In this document: piece by piece, positions 7,426-23,118 of the stretch | Numbering within the stretch: the stretch's first letter is position 1 | Layout: every line of letters begins with the position of its first letter | Source of the DNA: an uncultured Tidjanibacter sp. | GTDB taxonomy: Bacteria; Bacteroidota; Bacteroidia; Bacteroidales; Rikenellaceae | NCBI GenBank assembly: GCA_947852905.1 | Contig: CANTVF010000011.1 | Location: 1 to 37,203, forward strand | Reading direction: 5' to 3' | Length of the DNA stretch: 37,203 bases | Notes under the pieces: generated by a model | What the model was told of the DNA's origin: nothing | The model's input: only the letters and a program-made list of their open reading frames with translations | Databases searched by the model: none | Made by a program: the position numbers and the translations under genes

Positions 7426-8751
7426 TCAGTTTTCCGCCGACGTCACTTCACAGTCCGCACCTCCGGCACACGACACGAAACAATCCCGCAGATTTACCGT
7501 GACCGTATCGAATCCCGCCAGAAATTCACACCCCAACGTGCCGTATTCATGAACGTACACTCCGTCACGCGAAGTATTGCACAGAAGCGCATCGTCGGTG
7601 CAGAAAATCTCTCCGCCAACCCGCAACTGCATGAGTGGCAACAGGGCGCAATCGTCATACGGAAATACCATTCCGTCCAGACGATACTTACCCGAAATCA
7701 AGGCGTTCGTATCCATATAACGCCCGAACAGACCGTAACACCTCTCAAGGAAAAAACTCACAGGACATCCGGAATTCAGTCGCATCAGCACATTCATTTC
7801 CGGACTGTTTTCTACGGCGACCGATACCGAAACGAAAGGTATACCGTCCAGCATTACCAGATTACGTCCGGCAGACGGCAACTGCGTTCTCTCGGCCGGG
7901 AATATTATCTCCCCGTTCACATTGTCCACGACGAACTCACCCGCGGCATTCAGGAAACGCAACCCCAGAACGGCTCCGCATCCGGCAAAACCGTCCGTGT
8001 CGATTATCACGAACAAGGCGTTGCGATACACCATACCTCCGACAGAAACAGTATCGGCGACACCCATCCTAAAGGCGATGTCAGAACGCGACAACTTATA
8101 CAGCGGCACAGGGGAATCCACTATCCGTATACCGTGTTCGCGGGCAAAGTTCTCCGTCGCAAAATTCCACACGACACCGGAGTCGAACAACCATTCGCCC
8201 AGACTTCCGCCGATTTCCACGGGTATTTTCATAACAGTCCCCGTACCCAAACTGTCCGACCGAAACGGTACGCGCAAATCATGCGCCGGACGCTCCAATA
8301 CCGGCACAGGCACATCGGCCAACGCATTGGCCGCCCGGCTCAACGAACGGAGGTGGTCCACATTATCGGCAGCAGGATATTTGTATGCATACTTCCTGAG
8401 CAGTTGTGCGGCCTGCGAATACTCGCCTTCACAAAAAAGGGTATACGCCGCATTCCACAACACCGCCGCCGCACTGTTATCGCCGATTTTTTCGCTATAC
8501 TTTTCGAGCAACACGGTAGCGGCCGGCACAACCTCTTCCGGACGGTTGAAGTAACATCCGAGCAGAGTCTTGGCCATAAATTCGGTTTCATGCTGACGGG
8601 TACGGCCGCTCAGTTGAGAGTACTCCCTCTCAAGTCCGAAATAATCCCGACCGTTTATCAACTGAATCAGACGCCTGTCCGCCCTCTGTCCGAACGCCGC
8701 TCCGCAACACAAAACAGTCGCCACGAGCAGCACCGATTTCAACATTTTCAT
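7426..8751 (-). CDS. Secreted two-lobed retropepsin-like (clan AA) aspartic protease
   Basis: The 441-aa protein has a signal peptide (residues 1-21, ending AAFG-Q), so it acts in the periplasm or at the surface. Residues of about 45-145 are helical and TPR-like. Lobe 1 has the catalytic motif LFDSG (190-192 is DSG) and a downstream AVLGLRFL segment. Lobe 2 repeats the pattern with LNSG (326-328) and GTLGCEFL near residue 410, but has Asn where the catalytic Asp should be. Either a homodimer uses only the first lobe, or the second lobe is structural. It is the first gene of the minus-strand block and lies about 60 nt after its inferred transcription start. The substrate is unknown. Confidence 0.82.
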   Translation of the reverse strand: MKMLKSVLLVATVLCCGAAFGQRADRRLIQLINGRDYFGLEREYSQLSGRTRQHETEFMAKTLLGCYFNRPEEVVPAATVLLEKYSEKIGDNSAAAVLWNAAYTLFCEGEYSQAAQLLRKYAYKYPAADNVDHLRSLSRAANALADVPVPVLERPAHDLRVPFRSDSLGTGTVMKIPVEIGGSLGEWLFDSGVVWNFATENFAREHGIRIVDSPVPLYKLSRSDIAFRMGVADTVSVGGMVYRNALFVIIDTDGFAGCGAVLGLRFLNAAGEFVVDNVNGEIIFPAERTQLPSAGRNLVMLDGIPFVSVSVAVENSPEMNVLMRLNSGCPVSFFLERCYGLFGRYMDTNALISGKYRLDGMVFPYDDCALLPLMQLRVGGEIFCTDDALLCNTSRDGVYVHEYGTLGCEFLAGFDTVTVNLRDCFVSCAGGADCEVTSAEN

Positions 8752-8818
8752 ACCCTAAGAAAAACACCTGCGACCGACACATCGAACGCATATGACCTCC
8801 GGTCGCAAAATTCTCTCA

Positions 8819-8850
8819 TAAAGATATGCATATTATCCGGATTTCACAAA
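8819..8850 (-). promoter_or_regulatory. Promoter of the protease-merR-nif3-zinc-ribbon block
   Basis: On the minus strand TTTG (8850-8847) and TATCTTTA (8826-8819) are separated by 20 bp, a near-perfect Bacteroidetes -33/-7 pair. Transcription would start near 8812, leaving a leader of about 60 nt. The leader holds a 7-bp inverted repeat (GCGACCG/CGGTCGC). Confidence 0.72.
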
Positions 8851-8923
8851 CCTCCGCCCCAGACGCACAACACGATAGACAGTCATGAACGCAAACAGCC
8901 GCACCACTTACGGCAAAGTTTCC

Positions 8924-8931
8924 TAACTTTG
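8924..8931 (+). promoter_or_regulatory. -7 promoter box of the riboflavin kinase gene
   Basis: TAACTTTG matches TAnnTTTG and ends 21 bp before the ATG at 8953, giving a leader of about 15 nt. No TTG stands at the usual -33 distance. Its position rules out a longer upstream reading frame as the native start. Confidence 0.6.
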
Positions 8932-8952
8932 CGCCTGATAACCCGACGACAC

Positions 8953-9324
8953 ATGATACACAAGATATCCGGCACCGTCATACAAGGCAACAGAATAGGC
9001 CGGACATTGCGATTCCCTACCGCAAACATAGCCCTCGACGACGACATTCCGGTGCGGGACGGCGTCTATGCCGCAGAAGTACGCACCGAAGGTAAAATAT
9101 GGCCGGCTATGGTGAACATAGGCACACGCCCCACCGTCACCGACAACGGCAAACGTTTCGCCGAAGCTCATCTGTTCGGATTCGACGGTGACCTTTACGG
9201 CCGTACAATAACGATTTTCCTGTTGCAATACATACGCGGCGAACGCCGATTCACCGGTCTGGATGCACTGAACGAACAGTTACAGTTGGACAAACAGAAT
9301 ATTTTAAATTTATTTAACAAATAA
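8953..9324 (+). CDS. Free-standing riboflavin kinase
   Basis: This enzyme converts riboflavin and ATP to FMN. The 123-aa product corresponds only to the C-terminal kinase half of bifunctional RibF (about 310 aa). It keeps the kinase signatures: GRTLRFPTAN (the PTAN motif), GVYAAEV, MVNIGTRPTV, and EAHLFGFDGDLYG with its catalytic Glu. The FAD-synthetase half is absent. Upstream in-frame sequence is antisense to the protease gene and has no nucleotidyltransferase motifs, and a -7 box lies 22 bp before this ATG, so I regard the short form as genuine. It is followed after 32 bp by a flavoprotein gene, a sensible flavin pairing. A truncated relic is possible but unlikely given the intact motifs and promoter. 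Confidence 0.88.
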   Translation: MIHKISGTVIQGNRIGRTLRFPTANIALDDDIPVRDGVYAAEVRTEGKIWPAMVNIGTRPTVTDNGKRFAEAHLFGFDGDLYGRTITIFLLQYIRGERRFTGLDALNEQLQLDKQNILNLFNK

Positions 9325-20637: not shown

Positions 20638-23118
20638 ATGAACATCAAACAGTCTAAAGCACTCGAAAATGCTATTATACGTGGCATCTTCGCCTCACAG
20701 CAGGCAGACTGCGGAAATCCCGCGGACAGAGCGTTTCTTTTCCTGCTTGAGAACGGTAATTGCCATGCATCGTACATACTCGAAAAACTTACGGGCGACG
20801 ACCTCGGCGCACTGATCGCCGACATGAGAAGATGTATCGCCGACGGAGGTAAACCGTCGGAAGACTATTACGACACGCTGCTCGAATCGCTCGAAAAAAT
20901 ATGCGTACAGACCACCGACTATACGCCCGATCCGGAAGACATGACGATCAACTCCGGTCATATGTTACTCTACATGATACGTGCAGAGGGGAGCGTCGCA
21001 TGCAAACTGCTCGGAATATACGGCATAGACTACGACGAAGTGTCGGAAATGGTTTCCGAACTGCCTTCCGACGAAGACTACTACGTGGAAATGAACGCAC
21101 TGCGCAACATCCGTTTTTTCCGTAACAAGCCGCAGGAAGCCAATCGCCGCACTCCCGCAACCGAATCGGTCACGGCAGGAACCGGTACGCCGGACATACC
21201 CGGACGAAGCGGCGACGAAGATACGCGTTCGTTTCTGTCGTTATACTGCACCGACCTCACGGCCGAAGCAATGGCCGGCAAATCCGACCCCGTCATAGGA
21301 CGCGAAGAGGAGACAGAAGCCGTCATACAGACGCTCGGCCGACGCAAAAAGAATCACCCGCTGCTCGTAGGCGAAGCCGGCGTGGGCAAAAGCGCGATAG
21401 TAGAAGGGCTGGCACAGCGCATCGCGGAAGGCAACGTACCTCCGTTCCTGCGCGGGAAACGCATTCTATCGCTCGACGTAGCCTCGCTCGTAGCCGGAAC
21501 GATATACCGCGGGCAATTCGAGGAACGCATGCGCGGATTTCTGAATGAACTCGAAACGGCCACCGATGCCATACTGTTCATAGACGAGATCCATATCATA
21601 ATGGGAGCCGGAGCTACGCACAACGGACTGGACGCAGCCGCAATACTGAAACCGGCTCTGACCGGAAGCTCCATAATGTGTATCGGCGCCACGACGCTCG
21701 ACGAATACCGCCGTTATATACGCACCGATTCGGCTTTGGAACGCCGGTTCAGAAGAATAGACGTTTCTCCGGCCACCCCGAATCAGACCATAGACATATT
21801 GAACAACATAAAGGAACGTTACGAACGCCACCACTCTGTACGCTACACCGATGCGGCTATAGAAGCATGCGTAAAGCTGACGGACGTATACTTTCCGGGA
21901 CGCAACTTCCCGGACAAGGCTATAGACGTCATGGACGAAGCCGGCTCCAAGACATACATGGAATGTACGGCCTCCAACCATATTCGACATACGGCAACGG
22001 CCGTTGCCGAAAAGGAACAATACAGGCGACCGGATGCGGAAAATAAGGCATCATGCAACACCGCAAACGACAAACAGTCTGCAACCGCCGACACGACAAC
22101 CGGTCCGTGTACCGTAACCGCCGAAGAAGTTCGGGCAACGGTAAGTTCCATGACAGGCATTCCCGAACGGGATATAAAGCTGTGCGATACGCAAGAGAAC
22201 ATCCGCCGCATGCTACAGGAAACGGTCGCAGGCCAGCACGAAGCCATACGGACAGTATCGCGTGCCATACAACGCACCGGATGCGGACTTTACGATCCGG
22301 GACGCCCAAAGGCCGTGTTGCTCTTCGCCGGACCTGCCGGAACGGGTAAACGTAAACTCGCTACCGAACTGGCACGACTGCTCTTCGCCCGCCCCGATGC
22401 CATAGTGCGCATAGACATGGAAGAGTTCCGCGACAAGGCCTCGGCGAGCAGGCTCGCCGGCACGACATCTCGCGATGGCGCCTGCGGAGGCATTCTGACC
22501 GAAACCGCCGCAGCCCATCCCAATTCGGTGATTCTGCTCGACGGTCTGCACCGCGCCCACCCGGAAGCACTCGCAGCTCTCGGACGCACGCTCTACGACG
22601 ATGCGGCCGCCGACAACGACGACGCAAACTGCCTGTCCGAAAGCATCATAATAATGACGCTCGACACGGGAGCCGTACACAAACTGCATCGACCGATAGG
22701 CTACAACGGCTCTGCGGGCAAAGACGAGACCTATGCCATTCCGGATGCCGGCGAATACCTGCCTGAAGAACTTGCGACGGCCATCGACGAAATCGTACCT
22801 TTCATGCCCCTATCGGCCAAAGATATACGCAGAATCGTAGAGATGGAATTCGCCCGCCTCGGCAACAAGGCCGAAACTCTGGGATACACGCTGCGGCTGT
22901 CGGAAAACGCATGCAGAATATTGTCCGACACCGGTATGAAACCGGGCTACGGAGTGCACAAGCTCAAAAGACTGATGCACGAATGCATAGAAAAGCCGCT
23001 GGCGGAGATGATAGCCGACGGCAAAATCACCCCCGGAGACGAAATATGCGTCGCCGCCATGCCCTCAGGAGTACGCCCGATAAAGCGGCATACGCTGGAA
23101 AAACACGCAAGCGCCTGA
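20638..23118 (+). CDS. ClpC/ClpA-like Hsp100 ATPase with a degenerate second AAA+ domain
   Basis: The 826-aa protein has the ClpC layout: divergent N-domain (1-150), linker, D1 (about 205-440), short middle segment (440-495), D2 (about 500-826). D1 looks active: Walker A GEAGVGKS (245-252), pore loop GTIYRG, Walker B LFIDEIH, sensor 1 GATTLDEY, arginine finger ALERRF. D2 aligns throughout but has lost its chemistry. Walker A is GPAGTGKR (Arg572 for Ser/Thr), Walker B LLDGLH (Gly636 for Glu), and sensor 1 TLD instead of TSN. The arginine-finger site reads TAIDEI, sensor 2 YGVHK replaces YGAR, and the GYVG pore loop is absent. The ClpP loop is IGY (687-689) instead of LGF. The frame is intact. 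It may be a ClpC paralogue acting as an unfoldase or scaffold; ClpP partnership is uncertain. Confidence 0.88.
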   Translation: MNIKQSKALENAIIRGIFASQQADCGNPADRAFLFLLENGNCHASYILEKLTGDDLGALIADMRRCIADGGKPSEDYYDTLLESLEKICVQTTDYTPDPEDMTINSGHMLLYMIRAEGSVACKLLGIYGIDYDEVSEMVSELPSDEDYYVEMNALRNIRFFRNKPQEANRRTPATESVTAGTGTPDIPGRSGDEDTRSFLSLYCTDLTAEAMAGKSDPVIGREEETEAVIQTLGRRKKNHPLLVGEAGVGKSAIVEGLAQRIAEGNVPPFLRGKRILSLDVASLVAGTIYRGQFEERMRGFLNELETATDAILFIDEIHIIMGAGATHNGLDAAAILKPALTGSSIMCIGATTLDEYRRYIRTDSALERRFRRIDVSPATPNQTIDILNNIKERYERHHSVRYTDAAIEACVKLTDVYFPGRNFPDKAIDVMDEAGSKTYMECTASNHIRHTATAVAEKEQYRRPDAENKASCNTANDKQSATADTTTGPCTVTAEEVRATVSSMTGIPERDIKLCDTQENIRRMLQETVAGQHEAIRTVSRAIQRTGCGLYDPGRPKAVLLFAGPAGTGKRKLATELARLLFARPDAIVRIDMEEFRDKASASRLAGTTSRDGACGGILTETAAAHPNSVILLDGLHRAHPEALAALGRTLYDDAAADNDDANCLSESIIIMTLDTGAVHKLHRPIGYNGSAGKDETYAIPDAGEYLPEELATAIDEIVPFMPLSAKDIRRIVEMEFARLGNKAETLGYTLRLSENACRILSDTGMKPGYGVHKLKRLMHECIEKPLAEMIADGKITPGDEICVAAMPSGVRPIKRHTLEKHASA

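Follow-up and report, generated by a model that had tools for sequence, protein, structure and literature searches.

The window, by which we mean the whole 37,203-nucleotide stretch of DNA that was analysed, carries a ClpC-type Hsp100 gene (20638..23118, on the plus strand, as are all the parts of this gene given below) whose first AAA+ module, D1, is intact and whose second, D2, has lost its pore loop and most of its catalytic residues. The degenerate D2 is common to three species of one genus, most likely goes back to one old event, and evolved under purifying selection after the loss. An Hsp100 unfoldase normally consists of two stacked ATP-burning rings, and the reading we prefer, to which we give an even chance of being right, is that D1 is the sole motor of this protein and that D2, a ring without catalysis, is retained for assembly and for docking to ClpP. 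If that is so, the protein would offer a natural experiment on whether a double-ring Clp unfoldase can do without its second motor; how ClpA and ClpC divide the labour between their rings is still debated. No published report of a naturally inactive D2 in a ClpC was found in the titles and abstracts of open-licence papers.

The gene starts with ATG and runs without an internal stop for 826 residues. Pfam places the AAA, AAA_lid_9, AAA_2 and ClpB_D2-small domains on the protein, and its best PDB matches, by sequence and by fold, are ClpC and ClpB chains. In trees of both D1 and D2 it groups with the ClpC-type proteins of the family and not with ClpB, and its alignment with the copy of a genus relative (genome G002) covers residues 1-820 at 47% identity; judged from these comparisons, the protein is a descendant of ClpC. 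The genome of the window (G000) amounts to 2.24 Mb and is 99.94% complete. From translations read by eye, we take the upstream neighbours to be a RarA-like gene and a YfcE-like phosphodiesterase, and the downstream neighbour to be IleRS-like; neighbouring genes read in the same way differ between this locus and those of the normal-D2 relatives in the genus. Elsewhere in the window, a 591-residue reading frame (7549-9324, plus strand) matches a riboflavin kinase domain at residues 471-588 only, with no FAD synthetase match; its start is putative, and the true one is doubtful because the frame overlaps an opposite-strand frame (7426-8751) with a weak aspartyl-protease match.

The sequence-only reading had described D1 as intact, and the motif alignment bears this out. 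The module (residues 200-440, 21235..21957) has canonical motifs throughout: the Walker A GEAGVGKS (245-252, 21370..21393), the pore loop TIYRGQF with its tyrosine (288-294, 21499..21519), the Walker B FIDE (314-317, 21577..21588), sensor 1, and the arginine finger RR within ALERRF (369-370, 21742..21747). Among the D1 sites that are invariant in the relatives, all three D2-degenerate species retain 84. Between D1 and D2 lies a spacer (441-492, 21958..22113), at the usual place of the M-domain; over residues 441-522 it is 17 residues shorter than in most relatives (82 vs 99), and the corresponding lengths in the other two degenerate species, G022 and G001, are 48 and 43. In the model of the protein, the helices of this stretch, where a coiled-coil M-domain would lie, are predicted with low confidence. 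A short spacer is not peculiar to the D2-degenerate clade, since 15 of the 78 ClpC-type relatives have spacers of fewer than 60 residues. The M-domain of Staphylococcus aureus ClpC is described as a negative regulator (PMC5699869).

The degeneration of D2 (residues 493-805, 22114..23052) is evident from the alignment, from the invariant sites and from the Pfam score. The motifs were read from an alignment of 97 Clp proteins of the family, from which the repeats L012, L015, L016 and L128 and the filler L127 had been excluded, and the counts refer to the 78 other ClpC-type rows that remain once 13 ClpB, the three degenerate proteins, two with an in-frame stop (G017 and G073) and one with a degenerate D1 (L080 of G009) are set aside. 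Four residues that are the same in 78/78 relatives are changed here: the Walker A Thr572 is Arg (GPAGTGKR, 565-572, 22330..22353), the Walker B Glu636 is Gly (VILLDG, 631-636, 22528..22545), Asn676 of sensor 1 is Asp (TLD and not TSN, 674-676, 22657..22665), and the arginine finger at position 715 is Ala (22780..22782). At the sensor-2 position 774 (22957..22959), where at least 95% of the relatives have the same Arg, the protein has His, and the former pore loop (608-618, 22459..22491) is without GYVG. The claim that D2 had lost every catalytic element holds for all of these and fails for two others, Lys571 of Walker A and Asp635 of Walker B, both of which are universal among the 78 and are still present. 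More broadly, 92 D2 sites show one and the same residue in 95% or more of the relatives, and the window protein retains 2 of the 7 catalytic ones, none of the 6 in the pore loop and 47 of the 79 others. The excess of loss over the other sites is significant for catalytic and pore-loop sites taken together (p = 0.005) but not for catalytic sites alone (p = 0.13); judged from these counts, the loss in D2 extends beyond catalysis, though catalysis and grip appear to have been hit hardest. The Pfam AAA_2 score has fallen to 60 bits, compared with 218 in G002 and 212 in G010, both of which belong to the genus and have a normal D2. The ClpC type is defined in part by canonical ATPase motifs and a pore loop in D2; as a set these are missing, and we regard the protein as a ClpC derivative that is short of one defining feature, the two active modules, and that probably works as a single-motor ClpC.

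Another feature of the type, the ClpP-docking tripeptide, is present as IGY (687-689, 22696..22704). The presence of IGY in place of LGF had been listed as a departure from the norm, and here the evidence runs the opposite way. A hydrophobic-Gly-Tyr tripeptide occupies this position in 71 of the 78 relatives (VGY in 57, IGY in 5, LGY in 4, MGY in 3 and AGY in 2) and a GF-type one in just 7, which rules out IGY as a sign of lost ClpP contact. It is also identical in all three D2-degenerate species, while the flanks of the loop are divergent and the loop is otherwise scrambled; the three species agree in only nine of the 199 tripeptides of D2 (GPA, PAG, GKR, RAH, AHP, MTL, TLD, LDT and IGY).

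The genome was searched for ClpP and for a canonical ClpC elsewhere, as had been proposed beforehand. ClpP has a match on contig C3 of G000; it lies close to an AAA_2 match in a 452-residue frame, the starts being 0.9 kb apart, and by its size and place this frame is taken for a putative ClpX. A second canonical ClpC was sought with the window protein, and at E <= 0.001 the search returned this gene and ClpB only, so that such a copy is rejected at this threshold; weaker AAA_2 matches, one of them in an 827-residue protein, fall outside that result.

Within the genus, any match to the window protein occurs in 14 of 23 genomes, and ClpC-type copies, judged by coverage and identity, in nine: G000, G001, G002, G003, G005, G010, G015, G017 and G022. 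Six of the 11 near-complete genomes have such a copy and five do not (G004, G007, G011, G019 and G020), and the ClpC-type gene must therefore be dispensable in this genus. D2 is normal in G002, G003, G005, G010 and G015, and also in G017, where the gene has an in-frame stop. A profile of the degenerate D2, searched against 268 genomes of the family, scored G000 at 1e-163, G022 at 1e-127 and G001 at 1e-116, values that are no test in themselves because these three partly built the profile; the next match was the normal D2 of G002, at 2e-86, and no fourth carrier was found among the 268. A wider spread was also considered, and among 393 genomes of the order, with up to five candidates scored per genome, no further member appeared. 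As far as searched, the degenerate D2 is restricted to one lineage, three species all of the same genus. As a separate observation, nine of the 23 genus genomes (G007, G011, G019 and six less complete ones) matched neither the window protein nor the D2 profile, so that no ClpB was found there either; three of these cases are at 90-99% completeness.

Several lines of evidence bear on the origin of the degenerate D2. The three species group together in D2 with strong support (0.999 in FastTree, UFBoot 100 in IQ-TREE); in D1 the FastTree support is 0.893 and the split in the ten-taxon IQ-TREE analysis just 46. Their common stem is 0.95 substitutions per site long in D2 and 0.10 in D1. They share ten D2 residues, Arg572, Leu675 and Asp676 among them, none of which occurs in more than 4 of the 78 relatives, against four such residues in D1. 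On the strength of these shared derived residues, the inactivation of D2 was most likely one old event. After the split, the lineages kept losing different D2 residues: the finger Arg is retained in G022 and G001 and is Ala in the window protein, and the Walker B Asp is retained in the window protein only. Close relatives with a normal D2 had been named beforehand as a mark of recent decay, and such relatives do exist within the genus; the loss is nevertheless old and not recent, since it is common to three diverged species.

The sequence-only reading had also proposed separate estimates of dN/dS for D1 and D2, and D2 comes out at about 0.14, not near 1. In a codon branch model with ten taxa, omega was 0.143 on the post-loss D2 branches and 0.068 in D1, and fixing it at 1 on those D2 branches cost 52.3 log units; the difference between foreground and background omega was not significant (0.43 log units). 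The G022-G001 pair gave 0.135 in D2 and 0.070 in D1, with a cost of 36.4 log units for omega = 1 in D2, and the D2 differences between the two fall at 30.6, 26.3 and 46.9% over the three codon positions. On the window D2 branch alone, omega = 1 cost 14.6 log units, the free omega being at a branch-length bound and giving no estimate. D2 was under purifying selection after the loss, and neutral decay is rejected over the post-loss branches. With synonymous change near saturation and GC3 ranging from 58 to 88%, these omega values are a coarse gauge of constraint and say little about present-day selection.

The structure predictions are in keeping with an AAA+ fold for D2. The full-length model has a mean pLDDT of 75.8 and a pTM of 0.44, and it best matches, within the PDB, an integrative model of ClpC with ClpP. 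D2 modelled alone reaches a mean pLDDT of 79 and a pTM of 0.80, although confidence is low where the pore loop used to be and in the IGY loop; it matches ClpB NBD2 (4lj8, E 9.5e-26, TM 0.77) as well as ClpC structures. The alignments behind the models comprised 32 relatives, drawn from 77 that had passed a motif filter out of 80 fetched; the filter requires a normal D2 Walker A, so that the rows are no gauge of how frequent a normal D2 is. The predicted fold of D2 is weak evidence, because rows drawn from normal-D2 relatives favour the normal fold.

In the single-motor reading, D1, having intact motifs, would bind and hydrolyse ATP and pull the substrate, and D2, given the residues it is missing, would hardly be able to hydrolyse ATP or to grip substrate. 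D2 is predicted to fold still as an AAA+ domain, and it may be a passive ring whose part is to keep the hexamer assembled and to offer the IGY loop to ClpP; substrate leaving the D1 pore would then travel through a D2 channel devoid of pore loops before it enters ClpP. From AAA+ geometry, Arg572 and Asp676, both identical in the three species, would lie at the place of Mg-ATP, where they may brace the emptied pocket. A more specific version, which we put forward tentatively and consider rather less than likely, makes D2 a nucleotide-free docking ring maintained by selection and without a pore loop, in which an Arg572-Asp676 pair would replace Mg-ATP and IGY would seat on ClpP, with D1 alone unfolding and pushing the substrate. 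The loss of motifs, the one shared origin, the past purifying selection, the retention of IGY, the D2 model and the presence of ClpP in the genome all speak for the single-motor reading. Against a present function stand the two broken frames among the three and the five near-complete genomes that lack the gene, and the reading is further weakened by the 32 of 79 non-catalytic invariant D2 sites that are also lost, by the lack of a significant excess of loss at catalytic sites alone, by the continued loss of different residues in the separate lineages, by the near-saturation of synonymous change and by the normal-D2 rows in the structure alignment. D1 as the only motor would be consistent with a paper on the ClpC1-ClpP structure, where D1 is argued to be the more active ring of that complex, dominant in hydrolysis, and D2 to be restrained by Walker B mutations and by the contact with ClpP (PMC11005422).

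How far known systems resemble this protein is worth setting out. ClpC, the class 1 Hsp100 that partners ClpP, has the same domain order, the same D1 motifs, the fold predicted for D2 and a hydrophobic-Gly-Tyr tripeptide; it differs in having the Walker A Thr, Walker B Glu, sensor 1, arginine finger, sensor 2 and pore loop that D2 lacks here, and probably in the M-domain, which is not recognisable in the short spacer of the window protein. The D2 of NSF is almost inactive, and its role lies in hexamerisation. NSF and Sec18 are eukaryotic, have an unrelated N-domain and adaptor and no known ClpP partner, and belong to a different AAA clade. Their D1 is described as the mobile ring that grips the substrate, with a D2 ring that stays nearly sixfold symmetric (PMC6160233). 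The likeness is one of logic, a D1 motor with a passive D2, and not of family membership; NSF is not among the PDB sequence and fold matches listed for the window protein, which are of the ClpB, ClpC, ClpA and Hsp104 types. By this analogy we infer that the hexamer may be held by an ATPase-dead D2 ring. Pex1/Pex6 also has one ring that is catalytically inactive, with degenerate motifs, and yet structural; in that case it is D1 that is dead and D2 that drives, the mirror image of the window protein (PMC10518020).

The rival we take most seriously, though we think it unlikely, is that the gene is being lost: D2 would have been inactivated early, D1 would have stayed useful for a while, breakage would have followed, and the window copy would be the last intact one of three. 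The G001 copy has a frame break within D2, and the G022 copy has one between the N-domain and D1 as well as an early end in the D2 small domain; by comparison, an in-frame stop is seen in 2 of the 80 normal-D2 rows (G017 and G073). The G022 copy is unlikely to form a working ring, because deletions in the C-terminal part of Mycobacterium ClpC1 are described as abolishing oligomers and chaperone activity (PMC3527473). With such breaks, these two species may be in the course of losing the gene, and the absence of the gene from five near-complete genomes and the private residue losses after the split point in the same direction. It is possible that the breaks are assembly errors; yet two broken carriers out of three are a warning. 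Gene loss fits poorly with the rejection of omega = 1 on the post-loss D2 branches, with a window D2 that is free of stop codons although 2.3% of neutral point changes would create one, and with the retention of IGY and TLD in all three species. The earlier proposal that D2 was repurposed and not decaying finds agreement in the purifying selection over most of its history and in the predicted AAA+ fold, and is weakened by the broken frames of G001 and G022.

Two further alternatives keep the protein at work in other ways. D1 might be a remodelling ATPase that works without ClpP, with D2 as a scaffold for some other partner, a reading we consider quite unlikely: the missing pore loop and ATPase residues would suit it, as would the derived GKR and TLD stretches common to the three species, which could form a new surface or core, but IGY is retained, no partner gene is evident nearby, and the neighbourhood differs between species. 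ClpS was considered as a clue to such a partner and is absent from all 23 genus genomes, the control search being positive in 5/14, which also argues against this reading. More improbable still, to our mind, is a D2 that binds nucleotide without hydrolysis, as a structural cofactor. Lys571 and Asp635 of the window protein would allow it, and Pex6 D1 is described as binding ATP through a non-archetypal Walker A with no hydrolysis (PMC10518020); an Arg at the position of the Mg-coordinating Thr and the lack of the Walker B Asp in the sister species make it difficult. A sequencing or assembly artefact, an error whose correction would restore the motifs having been raised beforehand, deserves next to no credence: nothing was found in its favour, the frame is open across the whole gene, and the same derived D2 residues in two further species speak against sequencing error and rule it out.

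Because normal-D2 relatives occur in the same genus, the single-motor reading lends itself to domain swaps, which could tell what D1 achieves by itself and what a passive D2 contributes. Two other unusual Clp proteins came to light in the family. One is a 755-residue Clp protein (L080, at about 39550-41200 on contig C32 of G009) with the mirror defect: its D1 is without a normal Walker B or arginine finger (VIENFH and ELLSLF), its D2 motifs are canonical, and its NCBIfam score reaches the cut-off of neither ClpB nor ClpA; G009 is just 59% complete. The other is a 764-residue ClpC-type protein (L077 of G033) with milder changes in D2, a sensor 1 of TAN and a finger region of LSTELINRI, in which the Walker motifs and GYVG are present, and which might show, in a different genus, D2 drift at an earlier stage.
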